A stretch of DNA of 28,258 bases from a virus: IMG/VR virus record IMGVR_UViG_3300042380_000649, positions 1 to 28,258 of that record; one strand, given 5' to 3'. The notes beneath the pieces are model-generated. The model had not been told where the DNA came from. It saw nothing but the letters and a program-made list of their open reading frames with translations, and ran no database searches. This document shows positions 3,483 to 26,253 of the stretch, piece by piece. Position 1 is the stretch's first letter; each line of letters starts with the position of its first letter. A program made the translations under genes and the position numbers.

Positions 3483-3545
3483 TTCCCGTACAGCGGGACG
3501 GCCATGACGGCCGAGCAGGCGCATGGAGGCGCCCCCGCTCCTTCC

Positions 3546-3551
3546 AAGGAG
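3546..3551 (+). promoter_or_regulatory. Ribosome binding site of the head-module glycosyltransferase
   Basis: AAGGAG lies six bases before the ATG at 3558. A possible earlier in-frame ATG at 3504 lacks a comparable site, so the shorter protein is preferred. Confidence 0.75.
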
Positions 3552-3557
3552 CACTCC

Positions 3558-4486: not shown

Positions 4487-5133
4487 ACGTCACGATTGTC
4501 TACGGCGAGCCGCGATCACCGACGATCGGAATCACGCCGTACCGGAGCCTGTATCAAGCCACGCCGCCCGTGGTCGAGCCGTTGAGCCTCGCCGAGGCGA
4601 AGGCGCAGTGCAGGATCGACGACGACACCTCCGACGCTCTCGTCCAGACGTACATCACGGCCGCGAGGCAGTACGTCGAGGACATCCTCGACATCAGCGT
4701 CATCACGCAGGTCTGGCAGGCCCGCTATGACGTGTTCCCGATCTGGGAACTCATTCTGCCCCGCCCGCCGATGCAGCCGGAGACCGTGACGGTCACCTAC
4801 CGCAACGAGGCAGGGCAGAACCTTTCGCTCTCAAGCGCCGCCGGCGACTTTCAGGTGGACCGCTACACGACGCCGGGCCGCATCTACCCCAACTACAACG
4901 GCGTCTGGCCGGCGGTTCGCGGCGACGAGAACAGCGTGGTCGTGCAGTGGACGGCCGGCTACGGCTCCTCCGGTGCCTCGACGCCGCCGATCCTCCGGCA
5001 GGCGATCGCGCTCTTGGTCGCACACTGGTTCGAGATGCGGCAGCCCGTGGTCACTGGCTACTCGCAGGTGCTGCCGGTGCCGCAGACGTTCGACACGCTC
5101 TTGGCGGCCTCCGGGTGGGCCGGCTACCGATGA
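4483..5133 (+). CDS. Head-tail connector, HK97 gp6 / phiE125 gp8-like
   Basis: This 216-residue protein is likely to form the adaptor ring under the portal. After about 30 leading residues the family pattern appears: EPLSLAEAKAQCRIDDDTSDALVQTYITAAR (helical, with acidic DDD), QYVEDILDISVITQVW, a beta stretch PRPPMQPETVTVTYRNEAGQ, then VVVQWTAGYG and PPILRQAIALLVAHWFEMR near the C-terminus. These are hallmarks of the gp6-like connector family, as known from HK97 and phiE125. Start and stop both overlap their neighbours by ATGA, showing tight translational coupling inside the head module. The family call is confident. The stoichiometry is not deducible. Confidence 0.88.
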   Translation: MNVTIVYGEPRSPTIGITPYRSLYQATPPVVEPLSLAEAKAQCRIDDDTSDALVQTYITAARQYVEDILDISVITQVWQARYDVFPIWELILPRPPMQPETVTVTYRNEAGQNLSLSSAAGDFQVDRYTTPGRIYPNYNGVWPAVRGDENSVVVQWTAGYGSSGASTPPILRQAIALLVAHWFEMRQPVVTGYSQVLPVPQTFDTLLAASGWAGYR

Positions 5134-5618
5134 CACTCACCGCCCAGATTCGCGCAAGCGTCGATGCCCGTCGCACGACGCAGAGCGGGCTGGCGACGGG
5201 TGTCGAGGTGAAGCCGATCTCGATCGGCGTGGACGCCGGCGACTGCGACCTCGTGTACGCGGAGCGGCGGACGTTCGGAGCGATCGGGTACGACGAGATT
5301 GACTTCGCAACAGGCGGCCTCGCGGTCGTGAAGTTGCTCTTCGTCAAGAACCTCTCGGAGACGTCGGCGATCGGCCTGTCGGCCGGCTGGAACGGCACGC
5401 AGTTCTCGATCTTCCGGCAGGACGTGACGTCGTGGAACTTCTCGCCGATGGTCAACCTCGGGAGCCTGACGCTCCGCGGGTTTCCGATCCGGCCGCTGGG
5501 GGCGTGGCTTTTGTCGTGCCCGAACTCGGACGGGTTCGGAACGACCGTCGGGGGATCGATCCTCCGGGTTGGCGGCGTGCCTTCCGAACGGTACGAGTTC
5601 TACGCGATGGGGACGTGA
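5130..5618 (+). CDS. Virion structural protein, paralogue of the next gene
   Basis: This 162-residue beta-rich protein starts at an ATG overlapping the connector stop. Segments such as TAQIRASVDARRTTQSGLATG, GGLAVVKLLFVKNLSETSAIGLSA and GSLTLRGFPIRPLGAWLLSCP correspond in order to parts of the following 152-residue protein (SAQISLSVLA, LTAVKLYYVRNKGASSLAFAGAP). The two therefore look like diverged duplicates. Proteins of this type are frequent in the head-to-tail region of siphoviruses and are usually annotated only as structural. I infer a head-surface or neck role from position. No enzymatic motif is visible. Confidence 0.65.
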   Translation: MTLTAQIRASVDARRTTQSGLATGVEVKPISIGVDAGDCDLVYAERRTFGAIGYDEIDFATGGLAVVKLLFVKNLSETSAIGLSAGWNGTQFSIFRQDVTSWNFSPMVNLGSLTLRGFPIRPLGAWLLSCPNSDGFGTTVGGSILRVGGVPSERYEFYAMGT

Positions 5619-5621
5619 GCG

Positions 5622-6080
5622 ATGGCATTCTCGGCACAGATCAGCCTGTCGGTACTGGCCCACGAGACCTCGGCGACGGACCTGTCCTCGTCGCTGCGGG
5701 TGACGCCGGCGTCCTACGCCCAGTCGCTGACGAACGGCTCGGCGGGCAACCAAGCCCAACTGGCGTGGAGTGCCACGAAGACGCTTTCGGGGGCGTCGCA
5801 GACGTTCTCGCTGGCAACGCTCTCGGACGTCCGTGATGGGGCCACGGTCACCGTGACGCTCACGGCCGTGAAACTCTACTACGTGCGAAACAAGGGGGCG
5901 TCGAGCCTCGCGTTCGCCGGGGCGCCGTTCCCGGCCTCCGGCCTGACCGTGGCGGCCGGCGCCGTGGCGGTGCAGTCCGACCCGTCGGCGACGGGTATGT
6001 CGGCCTCCGGCGTGACGGTGACCGGAACCAACGGCGGCTCCTACGACATCGTGCTCCTCGGGAACGGGAGCGTGTCGTGA
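5622..6080 (+). CDS. Conserved virion structural protein of the head-tail region
   Basis: This 152-residue protein has the order of a widely seen phage structural family: SAQISLSVLAHETSATDLSSSL, NGSAGNQAQLAWSATKTLSG, TFSLATLSDVRDGATVTVTLTAVKLYYVRN, an aromatic-poor Ala/Gly stretch, and a closing GGSYDIVLLGNG. It is all beta by composition, with no signal sequence. It starts three bases after the previous stop and ends in a GTGA overlap with the head-closure gene. It shares its layout with the preceding gene. Its exact place in the particle is not known to me. Confidence 0.7.
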   Translation: MAFSAQISLSVLAHETSATDLSSSLRVTPASYAQSLTNGSAGNQAQLAWSATKTLSGASQTFSLATLSDVRDGATVTVTLTAVKLYYVRNKGASSLAFAGAPFPASGLTVAAGAVAVQSDPSATGMSASGVTVTGTNGGSYDIVLLGNGSVS

Positions 6081-6397
6081 TCGACATCGGCAAGTACACC
6101 GAGCGGGTCACGGTCCTCGCCCCGACAGAGACGCGGAGTTTCTCGGGCGAGTCGACGTTCTCGTGGGAGACGACCGTCGGGACGTTCTGGGCGCAGGTTG
6201 AGGGGCTGTCGAGCCGGGACGTCCTGCAAGCCCAGCAGGCCAACGTGATCGCCACCCACCGCATCCGCATCCGGTACCGAGCGGATGTTACGCACCTCCA
6301 CCGCGTGGTCTGGAGGGGCAGGACAATGGAGTTGGCGAGCGTGACGGAGCGCGGGAAGCGCACGTACCTCGAGATGCTCGCCAGAGAGGTGCAGTGA
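6077..6397 (+). CDS. Head-tail joining (head closure) protein
   Basis: This 106-residue protein uses a GTG start that overlaps the previous stop (GTGA). The sequence follows the phage head-tail joining family related to SPP1 gp16: IGKYTERVTVLAPT at the N-terminus, TVGTFWAQVEGLSSRDVLQAQQ in the middle, then THRIRIRYRADVTHLHRVVWRGRTMELASVTERGKRTYLEMLARE. In that family the protein forms a small beta-barrel ring that closes the DNA exit below the connector. The length (about 105-115 residues) is typical. It overlaps the next gene, which fits an ordered assembly operon. Confidence 0.88.
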   Translation: MIDIGKYTERVTVLAPTETRSFSGESTFSWETTVGTFWAQVEGLSSRDVLQAQQANVIATHRIRIRYRADVTHLHRVVWRGRTMELASVTERGKRTYLEMLAREVQ

Positions 6398-9769: not shown

Positions 9770-12700
9770 ATGGCGAACTACATCGGCAAGATCGCCGCCG
9801 TCGGCACGATCAACATGGCGCAGTTCAGCCGCGGGCTGGACAACAGCGCCAAGGACGTCGAGCGCTTCGCCAAGCGGATCAGTTCGACGCTCTCTTCGGC
9901 CAACTCGGCCGCCGCGCGGTCTTTCGACCAGATTTTCACGCCGATCCAGCGACTAGAGCGTGCGATTCAGGCGAGGTCGCGAGACCGCCTGAACATCGAC
10001 ACTGGCGGCGCGGAGGCGAGGATTCGCGCTCTCGTCGGTGCCGCCGAGGACATCGCAAGGCCGCTCGGATCAAGCGCCAAGGCGTTCTCTGGCCTGTCGG
10101 CAACGATCCAGAACGAGTTCGTCGGTTCGTTGGTGCGCGCTCAAAACGCTGCAACGACGGCCCAGAACAACATCACACGCGGCGCGATCAAGAACGCCCA
10201 AGACTACGAGCGATACAAGCGAGTCGTCGATGAGACGGTGATTTCGATCCGCCGCCTCTCCGAGGCTGGCGCCGCCGTCTCCGGCCTCGCGACCGGCCGT
10301 GAGTTGCGATTTCAGCAGGCTGATCTGGCGTCTGAACTTCAGAGAGCATCCGCTTCGCAGTCGGCGGCATCGGCTCTGCCGGCAGACGCCCGCCGCAGCG
10401 GAGCGGTTGCCCAGTTGGTGGAACTCCAGAGGCGCGAGGCCGAGGAGGCTGCTCGGCTACTTTCTGTCCTTGAAAACATCCGCAATACGCGAAGAGGCGA
10501 CGCCGCTGCCGCTCAGGCTGCGCTCGACGCTCAGGTGCAGCGGCTCGGACAGGTCAATTCGCAGTTGGAACGTCAGGCAGCCTTGTCGTCACAGGTGGCG
10601 CAGCGGCAGCGAGAGGTCGCTCAGGCGCAGGAGCAAGCCGCCACTCGTTTCTCGGCGACCGAACTAAACCGACGATCTGGTGAGTTGGCAAGGAGAAACG
10701 CCAGCGCGTTCGACGCAGCCACGGCCGGCGTGCTCTCCCAGCCGCAGGACAGGGGCGTGGTGTTTGGACGCCGAGTCAACACGATAGAGACAGAACTGTC
10801 GAGGCTCGATCAATTAGGCCAAAGATTCCTCGCATTGCCTGCGAACGTCAGGCAGTCGCTGGAAGGACAGCGAGCCGCAGTCGAGAACCTCGCAAACGCA
10901 GCGAGGCAGAACCCAGCCGGCGGGCTGACTCTTCTGGCAGAGGCAATAGATAGGCTCGACGACGTCGTCCGAACGACAGAACGAGGGATTAGCGAGTTTC
11001 GTCCGATACCGGGCAACCCGACCGGCACATTTGGCCCACCGACGCCGCTTGACGTCAGAAGAGACTCGACCGCTGGACGCCTCGGACCAGAAATCGACTC
11101 CGCGGACGCCGAGTTCGCACGGCTCGAGGCCGCGACGGTTCAGGTCAAGAACCAGATCGATCAGTTGCCGGCCGGCGTGAGGACGAGGTTCATCCCGGCA
11201 GTCAAGAGTGCAAGAGACGAACTCCTCCGCCTCGCCGCGACCGACGCCTCCCCGGAGGAACTGGAACGTGCCACGCAACGTGTCGTCCAGTTGCGGCAGG
11301 AGGTCGGCCGGGCCGAGCGGGCTTTCAAAGCATTTGGAGGTTCGTTCCAAGAATTGGCCGACGCGGCGGACCTTCGGCGGGCGGAGGCACGGCTCACTGC
11401 ATTGAGGCAGGAACTTCTGAAGGCAACTGGCGACACGTCTAGGGCTGCCGAGGCCGCGGACGACTATGCAGCCGCACTGCTCAGAGCATCCAACACGCCG
11501 GGCGGCTTTCAGGAATTCGCTGCTCAGTTAGATCAAGTCGAGCAGGAAGCAATCGAAGCGGCAGCGGCGGTTCTCAATATCAAGCCAAGCAAACTTACCG
11601 ACATTCTCAAAAAGCAAGGCGATATTGCCCGCGGCTTTTCAAGCAAATTTGGGTTGGCTTTCCAGCAGGCAACATTTGCCGTCGATGACTTCTTCTCTGT
11701 CACTGGAGACATTAGTCAACGGATTCGAGCCGTCGGAAACAATCTCTCGCAACTCGGATTTATTCTCGACAGCACTAGGGGTCTCGCCATCGGCGTCGCG
11801 ATATCCATTGGAGCGCAGGCAGTCGCTGCGCTGATCAAATGGGCAAACGCAGGCGTTGATGCGACTGACCGAACAAAAGCCCTCAACGACGCCCTGTCGC
11901 GACAGAGAACGCTTGTCGACCAGTTGGCCGAGTCCTTCAGGAATCTAGGGCAGTCGATCACGCTCGGTGCCTTCTCTGGAGGCGCCCGCGACGCAGAGGA
12001 GTTCCGCCGCCAGATTGAGCAACTCCGGCAGCAGCAGCGAGAGGCCCAACGAGAGCAGGCGGCGGCGCTTGATCCTACGGTACAGCAAGAGCGCGCCGTG
12101 CAGGCTGCCCGCGAGCGCGAACTTGGGAACGCCACAACGGTAGGTCAGGTTGTCGCACTTCGCCGCGAGATCGAGCAGTCGCAGGCAAGGGAGCGGGCGG
12201 CGGCGGATGCGGCTGCCGCGCGTCCACCAACAGCACCAGCGGACGTCGTAGAAATCGTCGCGAGACAGGTGCAGCAGCAGGCACAGGCAGCATTCGCAGA
12301 CCTTGGTCTGCCTCTTGATATTCAGGCTGGAGAGGGCCAGAGAGCAAGGCAAGAATTCGAGGCAGGGCCGGGAGCAGCGGTCAGGACAACTGAAGATGCC
12401 CGTTTGTTGCTTGAGAGGAGAAGGGACGAACTAGTCGCTGCAAGGAGAGGCGCGGGTGATGGCGGACGGTTTGTTATTGATCGCAGTTTGCAGGAGAACG
12501 CCTCGCTCCTTGCGGCGATCCAGCGAGACGAAATCGCCAAAATAGGCGAGGAAGCCGTCAATGTCGTCATCTCCCTGCGTGCCGCGGCGCTCGGCATTGG
12601 TCAGGCGCAGGACGGCCTGCGAGAAGCCATACGGCAGGGCTTGCCGAACGCTGTCCAGTTCAACCAGCAATTGACAAAACTCGCGGAAGCCCTCACGGCC

Positions 12701-13999
12701 GCGGAGCGCGAGGTCAACGATGCCACCAACGCTCTGGCAAACGCGCAGCGACTGCCGGCAAACGACCCCACGAGAGCGGGCGCAATTGATGCCGCAGAAC
12801 GCCGGCGTCAGGCAGCGACCGAGCGTGTTTCGGAACTGCGAAGAGGTGGCTTCGACCTAGAGAACGAGGCACTCGAGTTCCGCCAGCGATTAGCACTTGA
12901 TCCTCAGTCTACGCTTGACGCCCGCTTCGCTCGTATCCGCCAAAGCCTAGATGAAGCGAGAGTGCCGGAAGGGCGAGCCGCGAGGGGTTTGCGGGACTTA
13001 GAGTTCCGCCGAAGCGAGGCTGTTCGCCAACTCGAGGACGCGCGAGCGGCACAAAACCCACAGGCACAGCAAGCGGCTCAAAACTCGCTCGATGCGATTT
13101 CTGCTCAGGCAAGTAGGCTAGAGTCCTCCACGGGCGCCATACGATTGTTCTCAGAGGCGATCAACGATGCCCAAGACGGAGTCGTGTCTCGCACACAACA
13201 GGCGCAGCAGGCGCTTAATGCCGCCATTGAGAGAAACACCGCATTCAGCACGCCGCAGTCGCAGCGCGACGTCGTGCGAGCGAGGCAAGACCTCGCCCGG
13301 CAGCGCGAGTCGGCCAACGCGGCGCAGGTCAGGCTAGAAAGAATTAGAACGGAGGCGGAAGGGCAGGCCGCACTGACCGACCCACAAATACTTGCGGAGC
13401 GGCAGCGGCTGCTCGATCAGATTTCCTCTGGAACGCTCAATTCGCAAGGAGTGCAGGACGCGCGACAGCGACTTCAAGAAATACAAGACCAAGAGATAGG
13501 GTCTTTTAGGGGGTTTCTTGAAGAGAACACACAAAAAGCCGTTGACCAAGACATCCGCGAACGACAGCGACCACTTCTTGAGGCCGCAGGGCAAGAGTTG
13601 CTTGAAACCCCGGCCGAGCGCGCCGGCGAGCAGTTGGCGAGAGATTTTGAGAACATCCGGCTGGCTGCGCAACGGAATGCAAAGGAGCAAGGCAAGCCGA
13701 TCGACGAACTGGCAGTCGCCGAAGCGCAGCAACGAGCCTTCCGCCAGCAGGCCGAGCAGGTTGCTCCACTCCTCGTCGGCTTCTCCGACGAAGTCGCCAA
13801 CGCCCTCCTGCAAGGACCGTCGCGGGCCGCCCTGCAAGCCTCCGACGCATCCACGCTCCAAGGCCAGCAGGAACTCAACAGGCTCCTTCGGGGCGAAGAC
13901 CCGGCAAGGGACGTGAACCTCGTGGAACTCCAGAAGCAGACGCAGGCGCTCAATGAATTGGTGCAGATAGGACGCGCAGGCCCGCAGGTAGCCCAGTAA
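9770..13999 (+). CDS. Tape measure protein
   Basis: This 1409-residue protein, the largest of the window, sets tail length and is ejected with DNA. The N-terminus (IGKIAAVGTINMAQFSRGLDN) is of the usual kind. Most of the chain is Ala/Gln/Arg/Glu-rich and predicted as long coiled coil, with many QQAQ and RQR runs. One hydrophobic stretch around residues 660-690 (LGFILDSTRGLAIGVAISIG, then AQAVAALIKW) is the single probable membrane-inserting segment. It is preceded by FAVDDFFSVTGDISQRIRAVGNN, a pattern common in this family. The start at 9770 has AAGG at 9758-9761. The position right after the chaperone frameshift gene is diagnostic. No lytic transglycosylase or peptidase motif is seen. Confidence 0.94.
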   Translation: MANYIGKIAAVGTINMAQFSRGLDNSAKDVERFAKRISSTLSSANSAAARSFDQIFTPIQRLERAIQARSRDRLNIDTGGAEARIRALVGAAEDIARPLGSSAKAFSGLSATIQNEFVGSLVRAQNAATTAQNNITRGAIKNAQDYERYKRVVDETVISIRRLSEAGAAVSGLATGRELRFQQADLASELQRASASQSAASALPADARRSGAVAQLVELQRREAEEAARLLSVLENIRNTRRGDAAAAQAALDAQVQRLGQVNSQLERQAALSSQVAQRQREVAQAQEQAATRFSATELNRRSGELARRNASAFDAATAGVLSQPQDRGVVFGRRVNTIETELSRLDQLGQRFLALPANVRQSLEGQRAAVENLANAARQNPAGGLTLLAEAIDRLDDVVRTTERGISEFRPIPGNPTGTFGPPTPLDVRRDSTAGRLGPEIDSADAEFARLEAATVQVKNQIDQLPAGVRTRFIPAVKSARDELLRLAATDASPEELERATQRVVQLRQEVGRAERAFKAFGGSFQELADAADLRRAEARLTALRQELLKATGDTSRAAEAADDYAAALLRASNTPGGFQEFAAQLDQVEQEAIEAAAAVLNIKPSKLTDILKKQGDIARGFSSKFGLAFQQATFAVDDFFSVTGDISQRIRAVGNNLSQLGFILDSTRGLAIGVAISIGAQAVAALIKWANAGVDATDRTKALNDALSRQRTLVDQLAESFRNLGQSITLGAFSGGARDAEEFRRQIEQLRQQQREAQREQAAALDPTVQQERAVQAARERELGNATTVGQVVALRREIEQSQARERAAADAAAARPPTAPADVVEIVARQVQQQAQAAFADLGLPLDIQAGEGQRARQEFEAGPGAAVRTTEDARLLLERRRDELVAARRGAGDGGRFVIDRSLQENASLLAAIQRDEIAKIGEEAVNVVISLRAAALGIGQAQDGLREAIRQGLPNAVQFNQQLTKLAEALTAAEREVNDATNALANAQRLPANDPTRAGAIDAAERRRQAATERVSELRRGGFDLENEALEFRQRLALDPQSTLDARFARIRQSLDEARVPEGRAARGLRDLEFRRSEAVRQLEDARAAQNPQAQQAAQNSLDAISAQASRLESSTGAIRLFSEAINDAQDGVVSRTQQAQQALNAAIERNTAFSTPQSQRDVVRARQDLARQRESANAAQVRLERIRTEAEGQAALTDPQILAERQRLLDQISSGTLNSQGVQDARQRLQEIQDQEIGSFRGFLEENTQKAVDQDIRERQRPLLEAAGQELLETPAERAGEQLARDFENIRLAAQRNAKEQGKPIDELAVAEAQQRAFRQQAEQVAPLLVGFSDEVANALLQGPSRAALQASDASTLQGQQELNRLLRGEDPARDVNLVELQKQTQALNELVQIGRAGPQVAQ

Positions 14000-16641: not shown

Positions 16642-17078
16642 TAACAACACACAGGGACAATCTGAACAGTCGGTGTATTCAGCGCGGCTACGCCATCGAC
16701 GATGTGATGCCGTGCGTCGTCGCGCAGAACGGCGACCAGTGGACAATCGACACCGAGCACCCTGCCTACCCGAGGCACCCGAAGCCGGGCTACGAGCAGC
16801 CATTGCCGCCGCCATCGTCCGGCCCCGGCACCGAACTCTCAAGACTCCTAAAGCGATTCGGCATCGAGCCGACGCCGACCTGCCAGTGCCGAGCAAAGGC
16901 CGCCGAGATGGACGCATGGGGGCCGGATGAATGCGAGAAGCCGGAACGCATTGATGAGGTCGTCGCCGTGATGCGTGCGGAAGCGGAGGCTCGCGGCCTC
17001 CCGTTTCTTGACGTGGCCGGCCGAATGCTCGTCCGCCGAGCGATCAAGAACGCCCGCAGAAAGGCTAAAATGGACTAA
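16638..17078 (+). CDS. Conserved phage protein with a CxC motif, unknown function
   Basis: The GTG at 16638 overlaps the previous stop (GTGA), giving about 146 residues. An in-frame ATG at 16617 would add seven residues and overlap by 25 bases. The first half (RCIQRGYAIDDVMPCVVAQNGDQWTID, then TEHPAYP) resembles a short phage domain. The second half has a motif block that recurs in phage genomes: GTELSRLLKRFGIEPTPTCQCRAK, AEMDAWGPDECE, then a helix EVVAVMRAEAEARGLPFLDVAGRMLVRRAI and a basic end. The CQC plus DEC cysteines could bind zinc. The recurrence of this domain is from memory, and its function is not known to me. It sits just before the fibre genes. Confidence 0.65.
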   Translation: MITTHRDNLNSRCIQRGYAIDDVMPCVVAQNGDQWTIDTEHPAYPRHPKPGYEQPLPPPSSGPGTELSRLLKRFGIEPTPTCQCRAKAAEMDAWGPDECEKPERIDEVVAVMRAEAEARGLPFLDVAGRMLVRRAIKNARRKAKMD

Positions 17079-17446
17079 TGGCTACTTTCGCGCAACTACC
17101 GGGCACCCTCGACGCGACTTTTGTGGCTGGAGATGAGGTCGCCATCGCGCTCGACTTCGATCGCGACCTCACCGGGTACACGATCACGACGGCCGTCTAC
17201 GTCACCGCTGTCTACGCCTCCGGCGGCGGCGGGACCGGGTTCGTGACAGGCATCGGCGCGACGGCGGCCACCTTCTCAATCTCGAACACGAACCTCGCGG
17301 CGGGTCAGATCACGATCGGTCTCTCCGAGGTGCAGACCGCGGCGCTCTCGCCGGCAATCGCCTACCGCTGGTACTTGCGGTGGGTTGATACCGGGCAGGT
17401 CACGAGGACCGTTCTCTCCGGCACCGTGACAGTGGCGAACCCATGA
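17078..17446 (+). CDS. Small beta-sandwich tail protein preceding the fibre
   Basis: This 122-residue protein starts in a TAATG overlap, with AAAGG upstream. It is composed of Thr/Val/Ala strands: ATFVAGDEVAIALDFDRDLTGYTI, AATFSISNTNLAAGQITIGLS, IAYRWYLRWVDTGQVTRTVLSGTVTV. The RWYLRWVD and GTVTV end is typical of small baseplate or fibre-network proteins next to tail fibres in many phages. It ends in an ATGA overlap with the fibre gene. This points to a fibre adaptor or fibre-associated role. No enzyme motif is present. Confidence 0.65.
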   Translation: MATFAQLPGTLDATFVAGDEVAIALDFDRDLTGYTITTAVYVTAVYASGGGGTGFVTGIGATAATFSISNTNLAAGQITIGLSEVQTAALSPAIAYRWYLRWVDTGQVTRTVLSGTVTVANP

Positions 17447-19968
17447 GCATCAACGTCACGGTCGTCGGGACGACGAACGTCGTTGCCAGCGTGGCCGAGA
17501 CGACCATCGGCGTCTCCGTCGGCTCGCCGGGGTCGGTTGACGTCGGCATCGGGACGATGGTCGCCCAAGCCGTGACCGGCCTGCTCGTGGCCGGCGGGAA
17601 CAACGTCACCGTCACAACCACTAGCGGCGTCTTCACGATCGCCGCCGCCGACGCTCCGGTCTCGAGCGTCAACGGGAAGACCGGCGCGGTCGTTCTGAAC
17701 GCCACCGACGTCGGGGCCGCCAGCAACACGCACGGCCACTCCTACGTCCAGAGTCTCAACAGCCTCACTGGGACGCTCAACGTCCTCGCCGGCAGCAACA
17801 TCACGATCTCGACGTCATCGAGCGGGATCACGATCGTCGGCTCGGCCGGCGGCGGGACGGCCGGCGGGGCCGTCTCGAGCGTCAACGGCAGGACGGGGAC
17901 GATCACGCTCGTCTCAACTGACGTCTCGGCCGCCTCGGCCAGCCATACGCACGTTGCCGCGAACATCACGGACTTTGCTACAGAAGCCGCCAAATATGGC
18001 CCAGTCTCTAGCGTCAACGGGCGGACTGGGACGGTCACGCTCGTCGCGACCGATGTCTCCGCGGCCTCCTCGGCGCACGCCCACTCCTACGTCCAGAGCC
18101 TAAACGCCCAGACCGGCACGCTCTCGATCGTGGCAGGCGACAACGTCACGATCTCGACGTCCGCCGGGTTCATCACGATCACTGGGTCTGCCGGAGGGAC
18201 CGGCGGCGGCTCGGTGACCAGCGTCAACGGCAGGACCGGAGCCGTCACGCTGGTCTCGACTGACGTGTCGGCCGCGAGCGCCGTCCATTCGCACGTTGCC
18301 GCGAACATCACGGACTTCACGACCGAGGCCGCAAAGGTCGGCCCGGTGTCGAGCGTCAACGGCCGGACAGGCACGGTCACGCTCGTGGCCTCCGATGTCT
18401 CCGCAGCCTCGGCCAGCCATACGCACGTCGCTGCGAACATCACCGACTTTGCGACCGAAGCGGCCAAGGTCGGACCCGTGTCGAGCGTCAACGGTAAGAC
18501 CGGCACTGTCACTCTGGTCTCGACAGACGTATCCGCGGCCAGTGCCGTCCACACGCACGTTGCCGCGAACGTCACTGACTTTGCGACCGAAGCGGCCAAG
18601 TATGGCCCAGTGTCCTCGGTCAACGGCAAGACCGGCACGGTCACGCTGGTCTCGACCGACGTCTCCGCTGCCAGCGCCAGCCATACGCACGTCGCGGCGA
18701 ATATCACGGACTTCGTGACCGAAGCGGCCAAGGTCGGACCCGTCTCTGGCGTCAACGGACGCACTGGCACGGTCACCCTTGTATCAACCGACGTCTCTGC
18801 GGCCAGTGCGAGCCACACTCACGTTGCCGCTGATGTGACCGACTTCGTCACGGAAGCGGCCAAATACGGCCCCGTGTCCAGCGTCAACGGCCGCACTGGC
18901 ACGGTCACGCTGGTCTCGACGGACATCTCGGCGGCCTCGGCCGTCCACACGCACGTTGCGGCGAGCATTACGGACTTCGTCACGGAAGCGGCCAAATACG
19001 GCCCGGTCTCCAGCGTCAATGGACGCACAGGCACGATCACGCTCGTCTCGACGGATGTCTCCGCAGCCTCCGCCAGTCATACGCACGTCGTTGCCAACAT
19101 CACGGACTTCGGCGCCGGCGTGCTGGCGAACCAATCGGTATCCAGCGTCAACGGACGCACGGGCACGATCACGCTCGTCTCAACCGATGTCTCGGCGGCC
19201 TCCGCCAGTCACACACACGTCGCTGCGAGCATCACGGACTTCGTGACCGAGGCCGCGAAGGTCGGCCCGGTCTCGAGCGTCAACGGCAAGACAGGGACGA
19301 TCACGCTCGTGGCGACCGACGTGTCGGCCGCGAAAACCGTCCTCGCCGTAGAGACGCGAGGCCCGCTGGCGATCGAGAACAACTACAACGCCGGCACGTC
19401 CGACATCGTGCGGATTTCTGCGACGGCCGCCACGGAGATCACGGGCCTGTCGGGCGGCCAGTCCGGCGTCGTCAAGTTGCTCGTCAACGTCGGCACGAAC
19501 GACGTCACGTTCGTCTCCGACTCCGTGGAGAGCGAGTCGTCGAACCGGATCACGATCGTCGGCGGCAATAAGAAACTCAGCCGCGGCGAGGCGGCGTCGG
19601 CGTTCTACGATCCGACGAGCAACATCTGGCGGATCATCAGCGACCCGCCGTCGGCTCCGGCGTACTCGTGGACAACTTTGTCCATCACCGCCGCCCTCAA
19701 CAACTACAACCCCGGCACGCACACCGTCCTGCGTCTCAGTGCGAACTCGGCGCATCTGGTGACCGGCTTCTCCGGCGGCGGCGAAGGCTCCATCCTTCGG
19801 CTCATCAACGTCGCCACGCATACCGTCACGCTCGTCCACGCCTCGACGGCGAGCGACTCGTCCAACCGGCTCCTGCTCGACACGGGGACCGACCGCACGC
19901 TGGACGAGGATCAGCAGGCCGAACTGCTCTACGACCCGGTCTCGCTGCGCTGGCGGGTCACCCCGTGA
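17443..19968 (+). CDS. Repeat-built tail fibre with HxH metal-site array
   Basis: This 841-residue protein has an N-terminal 72-residue part that probably attaches to the tail. Twelve repeats follow, beginning VSSVNG(R/K)TG and mostly 44 residues long. Repeats 1 and 3 are longer (71 and 70 residues) and share an extra HSYVQSLN segment. Eleven repeats carry an HxH motif (HGH, HTH, HAH or HSH). In the T4 long fibre tip, HxH motifs from three chains bind iron on the trimer axis. By analogy this is a trimeric, metal-studded shaft. The C-terminus has two copies of an 86-87 residue domain (NNYN...YDP...WR), a likely receptor-binding head. Ends overlap both neighbours. Confidence 0.9.
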   Translation: MSINVTVVGTTNVVASVAETTIGVSVGSPGSVDVGIGTMVAQAVTGLLVAGGNNVTVTTTSGVFTIAAADAPVSSVNGKTGAVVLNATDVGAASNTHGHSYVQSLNSLTGTLNVLAGSNITISTSSSGITIVGSAGGGTAGGAVSSVNGRTGTITLVSTDVSAASASHTHVAANITDFATEAAKYGPVSSVNGRTGTVTLVATDVSAASSAHAHSYVQSLNAQTGTLSIVAGDNVTISTSAGFITITGSAGGTGGGSVTSVNGRTGAVTLVSTDVSAASAVHSHVAANITDFTTEAAKVGPVSSVNGRTGTVTLVASDVSAASASHTHVAANITDFATEAAKVGPVSSVNGKTGTVTLVSTDVSAASAVHTHVAANVTDFATEAAKYGPVSSVNGKTGTVTLVSTDVSAASASHTHVAANITDFVTEAAKVGPVSGVNGRTGTVTLVSTDVSAASASHTHVAADVTDFVTEAAKYGPVSSVNGRTGTVTLVSTDISAASAVHTHVAASITDFVTEAAKYGPVSSVNGRTGTITLVSTDVSAASASHTHVVANITDFGAGVLANQSVSSVNGRTGTITLVSTDVSAASASHTHVAASITDFVTEAAKVGPVSSVNGKTGTITLVATDVSAAKTVLAVETRGPLAIENNYNAGTSDIVRISATAATEITGLSGGQSGVVKLLVNVGTNDVTFVSDSVESESSNRITIVGGNKKLSRGEAASAFYDPTSNIWRIISDPPSAPAYSWTTLSITAALNNYNPGTHTVLRLSANSAHLVTGFSGGGEGSILRLINVATHTVTLVHASTASDSSNRLLLDTGTDRTLDEDQQAELLYDPVSLRWRVTP
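17659..19323 (+). repeat. Tail fibre coding repeats (12 units, mostly 132 bp)
   Basis: Units start at 17659, 17872, 18004, 18214, 18346, 18478, 18610, 18742, 18874, 19006, 19138 and 19270. From 18214 to 19269 there are eight 132-bp units in a row. Units 1+2 and 3+4 form a larger duplication of 345 and 342 bp. Protein identity between units is higher than DNA identity because many codons differ silently. The twelfth unit lacks the HxH motif. Confidence 0.9.
19378..19959 (+). repeat. Duplicated C-terminal fibre domain
   Basis: Two diverged coding copies, 19378-19635 and 19699-19959, each carry NNYN(A/P)GT at the start, ITGLSGG or VTGFSGG, ESSNR or DSSNR, and YDP...WR at the end. They are probably two beta domains at the tip of the fibre. 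Confidence 0.8.
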
Positions 19969-21131
19969 AACGCCGAGGCGTTGGGACTCGCCTCATTCGT
20001 GCGTGCGCCCTCTTGGCACGGCGTTCCTTCGCCAGCCGCCGCCTCGAGCACCGCGAGCGGTGGGCGAACGAGAACGGCCTCGACAGGGACCGTGCCGTCC
20101 AGTGGGTCGTCGAGGAGGCCGCGAGGTTCGGCGTCCCGTGCGAAGAGGGTGTGGCCCTCCGCCTCTACGTCGCAGCGGCCCGGCACGCGATCCGGTCGCA
20201 GCGGTATCAGGTGGCCGCGCCTGAGCGGAGGCCACGGACGGAGCGGACTGTGCTCCCCGGCGAACTGGCTATCGTCACCTGTCACTTCAACCCGGCCGGA
20301 TACAGGTCGCTCAGGGACAACTACCTTCGATTCATGCACGAGATGCGGTGGTGGGGCGTGCCGACGTTCGTCGCCGAGGTCGCCTACGAAGGGCAGGATT
20401 TCGTCGACAACGACGCCTTCCTGAAACTCCGCGGGACAGACCGGAACGTCCTGTGGCAGAAGGAACGCCTGCTCAACCTGCTGGTCGAGAAACTCCCAGA
20501 GCAGTACGACAAGGTCGCGTGGATCGACGCGGACGTGCTGTTCTTCGACCGCTCGTGGGTTCAACGCACACGCGAAAAACTGGAGTACGATCCCGTCATC
20601 CAACTGTGGAATCGCTGGCACTGCATCGACTCTGCCGGTCGCGTTGGCGAGGTGCTGTGGGGCGTCGGCGACGACGCATGGCGATACCTGTCTCGGCCCG
20701 CGTGCCCGGGAGGCGCATGGGCGGCCCGCAGGTCGGTCTTCCCGCTCTACGATCGCCACATTCTCGGCTCCGGCGACGCGATGTCGCTTGTGGCGTGGTG
20801 CGGCCGGCTGGACCGCCTCGCGATCAAATACTCGAGCGAGGTCATGCGGGAGGATTTCGCCGCATGGGCCGAAGACGCTCACCTGAAGGTGCAGGGACGC
20901 ATCGGGACGCTCGAAAGCGACGCGATCCACCTCCACCACGGCTCGAGGTCGCGGCGGCTCTACGTCGACCGCTGGAAGCCTGCCCTGAAGTGGGGCTTCG
21001 ACCCGCGCCGGCACGTCGAGATCGACGAGTCCGGCCTGCTAGCATGGACAGCGTCTGCCCCCCCGCAACTGCGAAAATGGGTGGCCGAATACTTCCTCGT
21101 CCGCGACGAGGATGGCGAAAATCTCACTTGA
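19965..21131 (+). CDS. GT-A type glycosyltransferase with N-terminal extension
   Basis: This 388-residue protein starts at a GTG that overlaps the fibre stop (GTGA). Residues 1-95 are a basic helical extension of unknown role. From residue 100 a GT-A like domain begins with ELAIVTCHFNPAGYRSLRDNYL. It continues with WQKERLLNLLVEKLPEQYDKVAWIDADVLF, where DAD at residues 188-190 is the expected metal/nucleotide-sugar motif. Later LWGVGDDAWRYL, CPGGAWAARRSVFP and AIHLHHG (a His-rich end-motif) fit the acceptor side. The gene follows the fibre directly, so transfer of sugar to the fibre or to the glycan made by the cassette downstream is a reasonable inference. The substrate is unknown. Confidence 0.75.
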   Translation: MKRRGVGTRLIRACALLARRSFASRRLEHRERWANENGLDRDRAVQWVVEEAARFGVPCEEGVALRLYVAAARHAIRSQRYQVAAPERRPRTERTVLPGELAIVTCHFNPAGYRSLRDNYLRFMHEMRWWGVPTFVAEVAYEGQDFVDNDAFLKLRGTDRNVLWQKERLLNLLVEKLPEQYDKVAWIDADVLFFDRSWVQRTREKLEYDPVIQLWNRWHCIDSAGRVGEVLWGVGDDAWRYLSRPACPGGAWAARRSVFPLYDRHILGSGDAMSLVAWCGRLDRLAIKYSSEVMREDFAAWAEDAHLKVQGRIGTLESDAIHLHHGSRSRRLYVDRWKPALKWGFDPRRHVEIDESGLLAWTASAPPQLRKWVAEYFLVRDEDGENLT

Positions 21132-21164
21132 CCGCCACTAGACTTCCCAAAGACACTATTCACG

Positions 21165-21470
21165 ATGCCGGCGACCCACCACTTCCTGATCGCAGGCGCC
21201 CGCTGGGTGTGGCGGTATAGCCGCCTCCGCGGGCAGGCGGCCGGGTGGGCGTACCTGCCGAATCCGAACAAGCCCGACGAGCCGTCGGTGCGGAAGGTCT
21301 TGATCGACTCGCGGCTGAAAGGTCGGACTCGCATGGAGACCGAAATCCACGAGGCGCTCCATGTATGCTTCCCGCAGATGTCCGAGGAAGTGATCACGAC
21401 GAGCGCCCGCGACGTGAGCAGAATCCTCTGGTTCTTAGGCTACCGCCTCCAAGAGGACAAGCAGCCGTGA
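21165..21470 (+). CDS. Small HExxH protein, putative phage metallopeptidase
   Basis: This 101-residue protein has H62-E63-A-L-H66 in METEIHEALHVCFPQMSEE, the zinc-binding and catalytic motif of gluzincin/minigluzincin peptidases. ITTSARDVSRILWFLGYRL follows and could carry the third ligand in a helix. The first half is strand-rich (TRMETE preceded by VRKVLIDSRL). Short proteins of this kind are common in phage genomes and have no known substrate. It is separated from the glycosyltransferase by 33 bases and ends in a GTGA overlap with the acyltransferase. It might process a virion protein, or it may be inactive. Confidence 0.6.
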   Translation: MPATHHFLIAGARWVWRYSRLRGQAAGWAYLPNPNKPDEPSVRKVLIDSRLKGRTRMETEIHEALHVCFPQMSEEVITTSARDVSRILWFLGYRLQEDKQP

Positions 21471-22078
21471 GCAGCACGTACATCGTGGGCGCCGGCGGCT
21501 TCGGCCGCGAGGTGCTCCGCTGGGCACGGGACGCCGGCATCGACGTGGACGCCTTCCTCGACACGACCGAGGGCGTCGCGTGCGGCCTGCCGATCCTGCC
21601 CGACGACCTCGTGTTCTCACCACGCGACGTCTTCCTGTGCGGCATCGGAGAGCCGGCGCTCAAGCGGATTGTCTGCGAGCGACTCCGCAGCCGCGGGGCG
21701 CGGTTCTGGACGCTCGTTCACCCGACCGCGATCGTCACCGAGCCGGCCGCGATGGGGGAAGGATGCGTGATCTGCCCGCACGCGATCCTGAGCGTCGGCT
21801 CGTCCATCGGGCGGTTCGTGACGGTCAACTGCGCCGCGACCGTCGGCCACGACACGGTAACCGGCGACTACTGCTCGATCTCAAGCCACGCCGACATCTG
21901 TGGGCACGCGAGCCTCGGCGAGGGCGTCCTCGTCGGATCGCACGCCAGCATCCTGCCGCACGCCCACGCCGGCGACTGGTCGATCGTGGGCAGCGGCAGC
22001 GTCGTCGTCCGCGAGGCGCCGGAGCGATCCACCGTCATGGGAGTCCCTGCGGCAGTTATCTACAGGAAGCCACAATGA
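21467..22078 (+). CDS. NeuD/PglD-like sugar O- or N-acyltransferase
   Basis: This 203-residue protein starts at GTG (GTGA overlap). The N-terminal 80 residues form a small Rossmann-like sugar-nucleotide domain (YIVGAGGFGREVLRWARDAG). From about residue 85 a left-handed beta helix of hexapeptide repeats follows (HPTAIVTEPAAMGEGCVICP through MGVPAAVIY). NCAATVGHD places a histidine at residue 128, equivalent to the catalytic base of PglD. In this family the enzyme transfers an acyl group from CoA or ACP to an amino or hydroxyl group of a nucleotide sugar. The next gene is an ACP in ATGA overlap, which suggests an acyl-ACP donor. It is the first gene of the acyl-sugar cassette. Confidence 0.85.
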   Translation: MSSTYIVGAGGFGREVLRWARDAGIDVDAFLDTTEGVACGLPILPDDLVFSPRDVFLCGIGEPALKRIVCERLRSRGARFWTLVHPTAIVTEPAAMGEGCVICPHAILSVGSSIGRFVTVNCAATVGHDTVTGDYCSISSHADICGHASLGEGVLVGSHASILPHAHAGDWSIVGSGSVVVREAPERSTVMGVPAAVIYRKPQ

Positions 22079-22293
22079 GCGAGTTCTGCGAGGCGCTCGA
22101 CCAACTGGTCGAACAGCCGGCCGGCACCAGCCAGCCGGAGATGTACCTGAACCACCTTGCGGGGTGGGATTCCATGAGCGCGATGGGGTTCATGGCTATG
22201 GCGGACAAGAAGTACGGCGTGATCGTGAGCGCTGCACGGCTCATGGAAGCGAAGACCGTCGGCGACTTGGCCGCACTCGTGGGAATCCAATGA
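22075..22293 (+). CDS. Acyl carrier protein
   Basis: This 72-residue acidic helical protein has the 4'-phosphopantetheine attachment motif GWDSMSAMGFM, with the modified serine at residue 33. KKYGV and TVGDLAALVG follow, the typical helix III and IV signatures. Specialised ACPs of sugar-acylation loci look like this (WDS instead of the DSL of fatty acid ACP). It overlaps both the acyltransferase and the methyltransferase by ATGA. No phosphopantetheinyl transferase is visible in the window, so loading would rely on the host enzyme. A phage-borne ACP beside a ketosynthase and an acyltransferase points to a dedicated acyl chain. Confidence 0.85.
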   Translation: MSEFCEALDQLVEQPAGTSQPEMYLNHLAGWDSMSAMGFMAMADKKYGVIVSAARLMEAKTVGDLAALVGIQ

Positions 22294-22835
22294 GACAGTT
22301 CACGCACGACTGGCTGCCTGAGTCGTTATCGAAGCGGTGGCGGGAGTTCGTGCTCCCGCGACTCAAGCATCCGCTGCGCTGGCTGGAACTCGGCTCATAC
22401 GAGGGCCGCTCGGCGTGCTGGGTGATCGACAACGTGCTCGAGGACGAGGACGTCTTGGTCTGCGTCGATCACTGGGTGAACGCCGACGCGGAGGCGCGAT
22501 TCGACCAGAACACGGCTGGCCGGACGGAGAAGGTGAAGTCACGGACGACGCAATTCCTCGCTCGCGCGATCGCTGCCGGCGACAGTTTCGACGTCGTCTA
22601 CATCGACGCCGACCACGAGGCCAAAAACGTCTTCAAGGATGCGGCGATGACGTGGCCGCTCCTGCCGATCGGCGGCATCGGCATCTTCGACGACTACCGC
22701 TGGCAGATGCCCGCCGAGAAGTCGCACCTCCTGCCGCCGAAGCCTGCGATCGAAGCCTTCCTTGAGGTCTACGCGGGCTACATCGACGTCCTGCACAAGG
22801 ACTACCAAGTCATCTTCCAGAAGGTGGGCCGATGA
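22290..22835 (+). CDS. SAM-dependent methyltransferase, class I
   Basis: This 181-residue protein has motif I as LRWLELGSYEGRSACWVID (ELGSxEGRS), an acidic strand end DVLVCVDHW that would hold the ribose of SAM, and SFDVVYIDADHEAKNVFKDA followed by LPIGGIGIFDDYRW. This is the layout of the Methyltransf_24 type, known for sugar O-methylation and small-molecule methylation. The length is normal for a stand-alone Rossmann methyltransferase. It overlaps the ACP and the LamG gene by ATGA. By context it methylates the sugar or the acyl group made by this cassette; a virion or DNA substrate cannot be excluded. Confidence 0.82.
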   Translation: MRQFTHDWLPESLSKRWREFVLPRLKHPLRWLELGSYEGRSACWVIDNVLEDEDVLVCVDHWVNADAEARFDQNTAGRTEKVKSRTTQFLARAIAAGDSFDVVYIDADHEAKNVFKDAAMTWPLLPIGGIGIFDDYRWQMPAEKSHLLPPKPAIEAFLEVYAGYIDVLHKDYQVIFQKVGR

Positions 22836-23524
22836 GTCTCTTGTCGTTGATAGCAAGACCGCGGTGGCTGCGGCCAGCGGCGATCGAGGGCGACCCGTTC
22901 TTCGAGGACGTCCTCTTGCTCCTGCACATGAACGGCACGGACGGCGGGACGACGTTCACGGATTCCAGCCGTTTCGCACGAACCGTGACACGGTCTGGGG
23001 CGACGACGTCCAAGACCCATCGCAAGTGCGGCGACGCCAGCATGAGCGTCAGCGTCTCGCAGAGCGTGTCCGTGGCGTCGAGCACCGACTTCGGACTGTC
23101 TGACGACGATTTCACGATCGAGGCGTGGGTGCGACCGACGACGCTCTCCGGCAGGCACGGCATCGCGGACTTCGGGTCCAACAACCACTTCATTCTTGAG
23201 GTTTCGGACGCGAACAAGTTTCGAGTGTTTCTGTGGAACGGCGGCGGGTTCACCATCATCTCAGGCGCGACAACGGTCGTGGCGAATGCGTGGTATCACG
23301 TCGCCGTCACCCGTTCCGGCACGACCTTGAAACTCTGGGTGAACGGCACCGAAGACGCGAGCGCCGGATCGGCAAGCGGACCACCGGACTCGTCCTACCC
23401 CGTTCGTGTCGGCCTTACGCAGGCGACCGGATTCACCGGTTACATCGACGAGTTCCGCATCACGCGGCAGGCCCGCTACTCGGCGGCGTTCTCCGTGCCC
23501 GTGAAGCCATTTCCAGACAGGTGA
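22832..23524 (+). CDS. LamG / concanavalin A-like lectin-fold protein
   Basis: This 230-residue protein has a LamG-type jelly roll: LLLLHMNGTDGGTTFTDSSRF at about residue 28, then FTIEAWVRPTT, GIADFGSNNHFILEVSD, NAWYHVAVTRSGTTLKLWVNGTE and GFTGYIDEFRITRQARY near the end. These are the core strands of Laminin_G_3 domains. Such domains bind carbohydrates and occur in phage tails and capsids. The first 25 residues are not a clear signal peptide. It lies inside the acyl-sugar cassette, between methyltransferase and ketosynthase, with an ATGA overlap. It may display or bind the glycan on the particle. Confidence 0.85.
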   Translation: MSLLSLIARPRWLRPAAIEGDPFFEDVLLLLHMNGTDGGTTFTDSSRFARTVTRSGATTSKTHRKCGDASMSVSVSQSVSVASSTDFGLSDDDFTIEAWVRPTTLSGRHGIADFGSNNHFILEVSDANKFRVFLWNGGGFTIISGATTVVANAWYHVAVTRSGTTLKLWVNGTEDASAGSASGPPDSSYPVRVGLTQATGFTGYIDEFRITRQARYSAAFSVPVKPFPDR

Positions 23525-23528
23525 GAGC

Positions 23529-24464
23529 GTGCCAATCCAAGGCGTCGCGATCCGCGACATCGCCGTGGCCGTGCCTTTGACCGTGCGAGATCAGTCTCGT
23601 TGGGGCGCCGCGGCGTCGAAACTGGAGGCGGCCACAGGCGTCCACGAGCGGCGCGTTGTCGACCGCCTGACGCTCGCCGACTTGGCAGAGGCCGCGTGCC
23701 GCGAGGTGCTCGGCCGGGCGGTGCAGGCGATCGTCGTCGTCACGCAGACGCCGGACCAACGCATCCCCCCGGTAGCCAACGTGCTGCACGGCAGGCTCAA
23801 TCTCGGCACGGCGTGTGCCGCGTTCGACGTGAACCAAGGGTGCTCCGGCTACACCTACGGCCTCGCGGTTGCGTCCGGCCTCGTGACCGCCGGCGTGCCT
23901 CGCGTTCTCTTGGTCGCCGGCGACTGCCTGTCGACCGTCGTCTCGCCGAACGACCGTGCGACCGAGCCGCTCTTCGGAGACGCCGTGAGCGCGACGATCC
24001 TTGAGCGGGACGACGACGCGCCGCCCATGCACGTCGCATTCGGCAGCGACGGGAGCGGAGCGGAGCATCTGTCGCTCGCACACGGCGACACGTCGTGCCT
24101 GAAGATGAACGGCGCCGAGGTCTTCGAGTTCGCGATGCGGACGGTGCCGATGATGGTCACCGAGTCGCTCGCGGCGGCCGGCTGGACGATGGACACGGTC
24201 GACCAGATCGTCCCGCACCAACCGAACCAGTTCATGCTCCGGCACCTCCGCGAGAAGTGCGGCGTGCCGGAGGCGAAGTGGGTCGATGGCATCGTCCGGT
24301 ACTTCGGCAACGTGTCGAGCGCGTCGATCCCGCTGGCGCTGGTGACCTGCGGCGGCAAGGGGAAGACTGTCATGGCCGGATTCGGCGGTGGCTGGTCGTA
24401 CTGCGCCGTCGCCGCCGACCTGTCCACGACGAGGCTCCACGACCTCGTGGAGGTCGCCGAGTGA
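23529..24464 (+). CDS. Beta-ketoacyl-ACP synthase III (FabH-like)
   Basis: This 311-residue protein of the thiolase superfamily condenses a primer acyl-CoA with malonyl-ACP. The catalytic triad is complete: Cys105 in DVNQGCSGYTYGL, His230 in IVPHQPNQFML and Asn261 in FGNVSSASIP. The FGDAVSATIL loop and the closing GFGGGWSYCAV are also family typical. Its length is close to the usual 317-335. GTG at 23529 is preceded by AGGTGA (23518-23523) that overlaps the LamG stop. It ends in a GTGA overlap with the SDR gene. With the ACP it would build a short 3-oxoacyl chain. No malonyl transferase or dehydratase is present, so the host would supply malonyl groups. Confidence 0.92.
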   Translation: MPIQGVAIRDIAVAVPLTVRDQSRWGAAASKLEAATGVHERRVVDRLTLADLAEAACREVLGRAVQAIVVVTQTPDQRIPPVANVLHGRLNLGTACAAFDVNQGCSGYTYGLAVASGLVTAGVPRVLLVAGDCLSTVVSPNDRATEPLFGDAVSATILERDDDAPPMHVAFGSDGSGAEHLSLAHGDTSCLKMNGAEVFEFAMRTVPMMVTESLAAAGWTMDTVDQIVPHQPNQFMLRHLREKCGVPEAKWVDGIVRYFGNVSSASIPLALVTCGGKGKTVMAGFGGGWSYCAVAADLSTTRLHDLVEVAE

Positions 24465-25192
24465 GATACCTCGCGACCGGAGGTTCCAGCGGCATCGGGG
24501 CCGCCGCGGCGAGGCTCTTGGCCGCCGGGGGCCACGACGTCTACCTGCTAGGCAGGGACTACGGCCGCCTGCGGGAAGTCCACGACGCACTGCCGCCCGG
24601 CAACCACGGTTGGAAAAGCATCGACCTCGTGTCGCTCGGAGACCGCACCGACGACGTGCTCGCGGACATCGCCGCTGTCCACGGGAAGTTCGACGGCGTC
24701 GTCCACGCCGCCGGCATCCACTCGCTGATCCCGCTCAGGTACCAGACGCACGCCAAAGCGGACGAGATGATCGCGGCGAACTACCACACGGCGTGGCACG
24801 TCGCGAAAGCGTTCCGGCAGCCGGCCGTGCGGGCCGGCGGGGCCGACGCGATCGTGTTCGTCGCGAGCGTGGCAGGGATCGTCGGGCAGGCCGCCGCGAG
24901 CGCCTACGCGGCGTCGAAGGCCGCGGTGCTCGGGCTGACCAAGGCTCTGGCGGTCGAACTGGCCCCCTCCGGCATCCGCGTCAACGCCGTCGCCCCCGGC
25001 GTCGTCAGGACGCCGATGCAGGAGCGGCTCGAGCACACGATGTCTCCGGCTCAGTGGCAGGCCGTGATCGACGACCACCTCCTCGGCCTCGGAGAGCCGG
25101 AGGACGTCGCCGAGGCGATCCAGTACCTCCTGCGTCAGAAGTGGACGACGGGGACCATCCTCACGATCGACGGGGGCATGACCGCACGATGA
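24461..25192 (+). CDS. FabG-like short-chain dehydrogenase/reductase
   Basis: This 243-residue protein is a classical SDR. The cofactor loop TGGSSGIG is at residues 6-13, HAAGIH resembles the NAG motif, Asn107 is in AANYHTAW, and the catalytic Ser136 is in VFVASVAG. Tyr149 and Lys153 are in YAASK, followed by NAVAPGVVRTPM and a C-terminal TGTILTIDGGM. GR at residues 31-32 after the second strand suggests NADPH preference. The closest functional type is 3-oxoacyl-ACP reductase. It follows the ketosynthase by a GTGA overlap, so reduction of its 3-oxoacyl product to 3-hydroxyacyl is the natural inference. A sugar-keto reductase is the alternative. Confidence 0.88.
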   Translation: MRYLATGGSSGIGAAAARLLAAGGHDVYLLGRDYGRLREVHDALPPGNHGWKSIDLVSLGDRTDDVLADIAAVHGKFDGVVHAAGIHSLIPLRYQTHAKADEMIAANYHTAWHVAKAFRQPAVRAGGADAIVFVASVAGIVGQAAASAYAASKAAVLGLTKALAVELAPSGIRVNAVAPGVVRTPMQERLEHTMSPAQWQAVIDDHLLGLGEPEDVAEAIQYLLRQKWTTGTILTIDGGMTAR

Positions 25193-26253
25193 TTCCGGCC
25201 GCCTACTACGTTTCCGAGGAGCAGTACGCACGCGAGGTGACGGCGTTCGCGAATTCCGTCTGGACGCCGGTCTGCATGGCGAACGAGATCGCCGGAGACG
25301 GCGACTACGTCGCCCGCGGGAAGGTCATCGTCCAGAACGTCGGCGGCGAACTGAAGGCGTTCTTGAACGTCTGCCCGCACCGCCTCAACAGGCTTGTCGC
25401 GAAGCCCTGCGGCACCGGCCCGCTCGTCTGCGGCTACCACGGCTGGGAATTCGGGCCTGACGGCCTGCCGTGCCGGGTGCCGAAGCGGCCCAGTTTCGAC
25501 GGCGTGAACCTCGCGGAGCACGGCCTCGCCGTGTACGAGACGGCCCGGTGCGGCAACCTCGTGTTCGTCTGCCGCACGAAGGCGATCGAACTGGAGGCGT
25601 GGCTCGGAGATGCTTGGGGGACGATCGCCGCGATGACGGAAGCCTGCGGCGAGAAACTCGACACAAACCGCATCTGGATGCGGTGCAATTGGAAGATCGC
25701 CGTAGAGAACACGCTCGAGGCGTACCACGTCGGCCACGTCCACCCGGAGACGTTCCACCGACTCGGGGCGAACGGCGGCGAGTTCGCCTTCGCCGGCCCG
25801 CACTCGTCGTGGTCGACGCCCCTGTCTGCGAAGACGACGGCGTGGCTTGAATCGATGGAAGACGTGTTCGCCTCGCGGCCGTACAAACCGGCAGGCTACG
25901 TCCATCAACTGGTGTTCCCGCACTGCACGATCGCGAGCGCGGCCGGCATGAGCGTGTCGATCCAGTTCTTCTCGCCGGCAGGCGTCGGCGACACGGAGTT
26001 CACGTCGCTTGTCTACGCGACAAAGGTAGGCGACCTCTCGCCGGCACAGGCGGAACGCCGCGAGGTGTTCAACAAGTCTGTCGTGGACTTCAACCGGGCC
26101 GTGTTCGCCGAGGACGCCGCAGTTTGCGAGAGCGTCCACGCCGGAGCCTGCGACGCCGCCGGATCGGGCGTGGAAGCAATCCTGTCGGAGGACGAGGAGC
26201 GTGTCGGGCATCACATCAGCGCACTCCTGATGGCGTGCGACGGTCTCTCGTGA
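25189..26253 (+). CDS. Rieske non-heme iron oxygenase, alpha-subunit type
   Basis: This 354-residue protein has an N-terminal Rieske [2Fe-2S] domain with C62-P-H64 (NVCPHRLNRLV) and C81-G-Y-H84 (LVCGYHGWEF), and a catalytic domain with NWKIAVENTLEAYHVGHVHP. His180 and His185 there, together with a downstream Asp (likely 309 in FAEDA), form the mononuclear iron site. This is the layout of aromatic-ring and aliphatic hydroxylases or demethylases (RO family). Such enzymes need a reductase, which is not in the window, so host ferredoxin or reductase would be used. It is coupled by ATGA to the SDR and ends the cassette. The substrate is presumably the acyl group or the sugar. Confidence 0.92.
   Translation: MIPAAYYVSEEQYAREVTAFANSVWTPVCMANEIAGDGDYVARGKVIVQNVGGELKAFLNVCPHRLNRLVAKPCGTGPLVCGYHGWEFGPDGLPCRVPKRPSFDGVNLAEHGLAVYETARCGNLVFVCRTKAIELEAWLGDAWGTIAAMTEACGEKLDTNRIWMRCNWKIAVENTLEAYHVGHVHPETFHRLGANGGEFAFAGPHSSWSTPLSAKTTAWLESMEDVFASRPYKPAGYVHQLVFPHCTIASAAGMSVSIQFFSPAGVGDTEFTSLVYATKVGDLSPAQAERREVFNKSVVDFNRAVFAEDAAVCESVHAGACDAAGSGVEAILSEDEERVGHHISALLMACDGLS

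Follow-up and report, generated by a model that had tools for sequence, protein, structure and literature searches.

What does a ladder of eleven HxH motifs do in a phage tail fibre? The question is posed by an 841-residue protein encoded in an IMG/VR virus record of 28,258 bases, referred to here as the window. A sequence-only reading of this DNA had proposed that the motifs build an unusually metal-rich shaft, perhaps able to bind host iron-uptake receptors.

Architecture of the fibre gene and its HxH ladder

The fibre gene lies 3′ of a long gene (9770–13999) with a weak tape-measure match and of the small tail-region genes that come after it. The same record carries an HK97-type major capsid gene (PF05065), which together with the tape-measure gene places the fibre in a tail block. 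Shortly 3′ of the capsid gene, the gene at 3504–4286 shows a weak glycosyltransferase-family match (E 0.0077, below the cut-off). The features of the fibre locus are listed below; the HxH motifs, the VQSLN modules and the final repeat were located by motif scan.

17078–17446, + strand: small gene immediately 5′ of the fibre gene, overlapping its start (phrog_1084, 1.5e-5)
17443–19968, + strand: repeat tail fibre or minor tail protein, 841 aa; a single ORF that closes the tail gene block
17443–17658, + strand: N-terminal 72 residues of the fibre, 99–100% identical to L002, L003, L004, L006 and L007
17659–19323, + strand: array with twelve VNG[KR]TG repeats, HxH in eleven (repeat analysis of the ORF)
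17731–17739, + strand: HxH 1 (HGH), residue 97
17746–17871, + strand: VQSLN module 1, without HxH, residues 102–143
17944–17952, + strand: HxH 2 (HTH), residue 168
18076–18084, + strand: HxH 3 (HAH), residue 212
18091–18213, + strand: VQSLN module 2, without HxH, residues 217–257
18286–18294, + strand: HxH 4 (HSH), residue 282
18418–18426, + strand: HxH 5 (HTH), residue 326
18550–18558, + strand: HxH 6 (HTH), residue 370
18682–18690, + strand: HxH 7 (HTH), residue 414
18814–18822, + strand: HxH 8 (HTH), residue 458
18946–18954, + strand: HxH 9 (HTH), residue 502
19078–19086, + strand: HxH 10 (HTH), residue 546
19210–19218, + strand: HxH 11 (HTH), residue 590
19270–19323, + strand: final VNG[KR]TG repeat, histidine-free
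19330–19965, + strand: C-terminal region, a 107-residue unit present twice (direct repeats D4 and D9, 321 nt apart), HxH-free

The protein belongs to known tail families, matching PHROG 26941 (E 5e-54) and 2952 (E 5e-38). Its whole-protein score against Pfam PTR (PF12789) is 40.5 bits, above the curated cut-off of 27, although its best single stretch covers just 17 of 60 profile positions and no stretch passes alone. Weak Pfam matches to DUF3164, SocA, KOW and CobT were dismissed as artefacts of repetitive sequence. The near-identical N-terminal 72 residues are probably the virion attachment end. Comparison with related viruses revealed replacement or divergence of the C-terminal region in L007, L009 and L018, and this region is probably the distal end. 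A homologue of the small gene at 17078–17446 precedes the fibre genes of the relatives, adjoining them in most of L002–L034. In L020–L024, a second fibre gene (around 4730–6160) that contains two HxH motifs and a single VNGKTG match follows a dNMP kinase gene and sits behind a 34% paralogue of this small gene; its position would map just past the end of the window.

Downstream, a gene at 19965–21131 starts (GTG at 19965) within the last codons of the fibre gene; it appears glycosyltransferase-like by eye and has no match in Pfam or NCBIfam. It is followed at 21473–26253 by a run of enzyme genes, comprising a NeuD/PglD-type acetyltransferase (TIGR03570, 2e-58), an acyl carrier protein, Methyltransf_24, a LamG lectin-like protein, a ketoacyl-ACP synthase III, a short-chain dehydrogenase and a Rieske oxygenase. 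Such an acyl-modifying pathway is unusual within a phage tail region. Named phage records hold only distant matches to the synthase and oxygenase (<60% identity), many of them in unannotated or very long records that may be bacterial DNA. When 19965–26253 was compared with L002–L010, the acetyltransferase, acyl carrier protein, synthase, dehydrogenase and oxygenase were 95–100% identical wherever present; the fibre C-terminus and the glycosyltransferase, methyltransferase and LamG genes were replaced or diverged in some. This pattern suggests that a swapped host-recognition or surface-modification block adjoins a fixed enzyme block.

Within the array, HxH occupies repeat position 25 in 11 of 12 repeats, and the final repeat is histidine-free, just as the sequence-only reading had described. 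Its count of eleven motifs and their coordinates also hold. The uniform 44-residue spacing does not: successive intervals measure 71, 44, 70 and then seven times 44 residues, so that 44 residues separate the motifs in eight of ten cases. The two longer intervals arise because the HxH-free VQSLN modules are interposed. A chance origin was rejected, since none of 20,000 shuffles of the fibre protein reached eleven HxH (mean 0.78, maximum 5). Recent copying can be discarded as well, because third codon positions differ between repeats at 47% of sites (first and second positions: 19%). Both histidines are invariant across the eleven motifs, the first being encoded by CAT five times and by CAC six times. 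The ladder is thus a real, selected feature.

Paired histidines in a variable module family

To place the ladder in its family, we compared 194 distinct repeats. Besides those of the window, they derive from 22 loci in bacterial genomes and from related viral contigs; many are near-copies from related phages, so that the counts are not independent. The site carries HxH in 109 modules and is without histidine in 79. Six were unclassified, four having a histidine elsewhere and two (both L079) an HTH that, as the full protein reveals, was cut by the search window. A site with a single histidine did not occur among the 194 modules, and we saw no exception to the both-or-none rule. As judged from these repeats, selection acts on both histidines together, and the motif is present or absent as a whole.

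Because the histidine-free type is common (79/194), the motif is dispensable for the VNGKTG repeat, whose fold does not require metal. One common type of this kind, DVGALPDTTVIPSKTSQLTND, is present in other phages too. The frequency of such close histidine-free repeat types lends some weight to a metal-free alternative, in which the histidines serve in the virion as core or hydrogen-bonding residues required by the repeat fold. In the same direction, our literature search found no metal measurement, nor any other metal evidence, for a VNGKTG-type repeat. We nevertheless regard this alternative as rather unlikely. Histidines that are both present or both absent, and never single, argue against it, as does the tentative alignment with a crystallographic iron site described below.

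The number of motifs changes among close relatives, from 10 in L002 and L006 to 9 in L003 and L004, 8 in L007 and 6 in L018; a truncated copy of the fibre in L005 has 8. This range of 6–11, with the window fibre at its upper end, reflects the loss or gain of whole repeats, and therefore no fixed number is required. In Streptomyces acidicola (L097 and L099), a 927-residue frame, a putative gene, contains 16 HxH at irregular spacing.

A candidate axial metal site

The link to a solved metal site runs through the fibre of the relative L011, which carries twelve HxH, mostly within a 37-residue repeat. At '..KPATFPPSGHNHDTSQITSG..', this ladder matches the shaft of the R1 and R2 pyocins (6CL5 and 6CL6; E 0.013 and 0.044). 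The aligned pyocin HNH corresponds to His561/His563 and His562/His564, as placed from chain lengths (384 and 372 residues, with last residues 701 and 691), and these histidines coordinate iron octahedrally (PMC6116203). The sequence xxx[QN][IL]T comes after HxH in the pyocin-type and the window-type repeat alike. Moreover, L011 contains a hybrid repeat, '..ALSNVPTTFSPTTHTHSVSQITDFVTEAAKYGPVTSVNG..' (also given as SPTTHTHSVSQITDFVTEAAKYGPVTSVNG), that resembles the pyocin type up to HxH and the window type thereafter, as expected if the two types of HxH site are equivalent positions. In line with this, hhalign placed the pyocin-type and window-type profiles in register at HxH with moderate confidence (E 1.7e-4, probability 49%). 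The connection from window repeat to pyocin site, which passes through L011 and this one modest profile match, is a weak one. The L011 fibre also matches the collar fibre gp4 of 9d93 (E 1.8e-7), a Bxb1 structure (PMC13148394).

The metal reading of the ladder is plausible but indirect, and we hypothesise that the protein is a homotrimeric fibre with a shaft of consecutive ~44-residue PTR/VNGKTG-type modules. In 11 of 12 modules, two histidines from each of three chains would most likely point to the three-fold axis, and the six together would form one buried octahedral divalent-metal site, probably Fe(II), as in the R1/R2 pyocins and T4 gp37. The axial metal would keep the chains of the trimer in register while the fibre folds and stiffen it afterwards, making no contact with a receptor. 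This would agree with the buried pyocin iron, for which a role as a folding aid or in tuning stiffness was suggested (PMC6116203). Gain or loss of whole modules would change shaft length and site number together. We assign this reading, eleven buried six-histidine sites included, a probability of roughly 0.72, on the grounds of the both-or-none histidine pattern and of the in-register alignment with the pyocin sequence. An analogy with T4 gp37, in which six histidines of three chains hold one iron, had been drawn earlier and is reasonable, but the R1/R2 pyocin site supports the proposal better, its flank aligning in register with moderate confidence (PMC6116203).

The same structural role could be filled by zinc or another divalent metal, a sub-case of the proposed trimeric shaft in which the metal alone differs. 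Zinc was found in the HxH site of a T4 gp12 crystal, after heat treatment and zinc reconstitution, whereas iron occupies most solved HxH sites of fibres and spikes (PMC6116203). A metal other than iron therein appears improbable.

Structure prediction with AlphaFold2 gave a mean pLDDT of 42.6 for the full fibre as a single chain (ten sequences; ~40–65 over most of the repeat region) and of 56 for a single-chain two-repeat fragment (thirty sequences). Neither model yielded a usable fold or a reliable histidine orientation, and Foldseek with the full-length model returned no match at E ≤ 0.001. In that low-confidence model (mean pLDDT as above), the HxH of many repeats falls within a strand. If HTHVAANI forms a regular strand, the histidines would be on one face and V and I on the other. 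This is not what a simple inward-facing face would give and, as far as the model can be read, counts against histidines that face the axis.

A further possibility, called the Ferrojan or Trojan Horse idea, is that an iron-loaded fibre docks on iron-uptake receptors of the host. It has been put forward for marine phages whose fibres carry HxH, with receptor use left to further work (PMC11705849). For the fibre described here, such binding is unsupported, because the C-terminal end is HxH-free and the iron of the pyocin site is buried. The motifs are located in the shaft and would be buried if pyocin-like, as iron is in solved HxH sites (PMC6116203). In addition, HxH number varies among kin. We therefore consider receptor docking very unlikely. 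Hardly more credible is a composite scheme with eleven stacked metal sites ~6 nm apart (roughly scaled from the pyocin shaft, in which 70 residues span 93 Å; PMC6116203), a length tuned in steps of a single repeat with its metal, and an iron load that aids receptor docking.

Ladder length, metal density and known systems

If each site binds metal, up to eleven ions would sit in one fibre, and the shaft would lengthen or shorten by whole metal-bearing units. The relatives with 6–11 motifs would then form a natural series for testing whether axial metals determine the register or the stiffness of trimeric fibres. That the 194 modules show a both-or-none pattern of histidines is simple evidence of a paired role; otherwise, the ladder extends a widespread design.

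The suggestion of an unusually metal-rich shaft was not borne out. HxH motifs follow each other at a mean spacing of 49.3 residues in the fibre; the seven at the C-terminal tip of T4 gp37 are 19.2 residues apart on average. Nor is their number exceptional: L011 has 12, L028 has 11, and tail proteins of cultured phages have up to 9 (DrYang gp27, KBurrousTX gp27 and Mcat4, 9 each). Fibres with six (PMC11705849) and seven HxH (PMC8174754) were already described. The ladder is a long new example of a design known in many phage fibres; it does not define a novel class of tail that is rich in metal or hijacks iron. Searching named phages by tblastn with the fibre and three of its repeats returned no match, probably owing to the masking of low-complexity sequence by BLAST. 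With the L011 fibre, which is more varied, 206 records were retrieved.

Among known systems, the R1/R2 pyocin shaft (6CL5, 6CL6) resembles the window fibre in having xxx[QN][IL]T directly after HxH, and its structure holds a six-histidine iron site on the trimer axis. However, the pyocins have one site per fibre instead of eleven motifs, and the module before HxH reads KPxTFxPS rather than VNGKTG. The receptor-binding tip of T4 gp37 (2XGF) likewise bears a series of HxH along one chain, and seven irons are reported for it, but its motifs lie 9–37 residues apart, at the C-terminal tip, and without the VNGKTG repeat.

The repeat itself is shared with tail proteins of Pfam PTR (PF12789) and PHROG families 26941, 17509 and 2952, from which the window fibre differs in its long array with HxH in nearly all modules. 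FtbO (9j1l), a solved protein for which our literature search found no paper, contains two modules of the same type as those of the window, both bearing HTH (E 3e-16), with VNGKxG and SHTH or NHTH in the register of the window repeat. Unlike the window fibre, it is short, with two modules and 146–159 residues in the chain.

Tail proteins of the Arthrobacter phages DrYang and KBurrousTX, Moraxella phage Mcat4 and Streptomyces phage Paedore carry ladders of 9, 9, 9 and 4 HxH, respectively. These are built from other module types at other spacings, such as KPxTFxPSxHxH every 19 residues in Paedore, and not from 44-residue VNGKTG modules. Alteromonas phage R22Y gp12 has six HxH in a fibre whose iron sites are predicted only, but whereas most intervals of the window ladder are regular, those of R22Y gp12 are irregular (PMC11705849).
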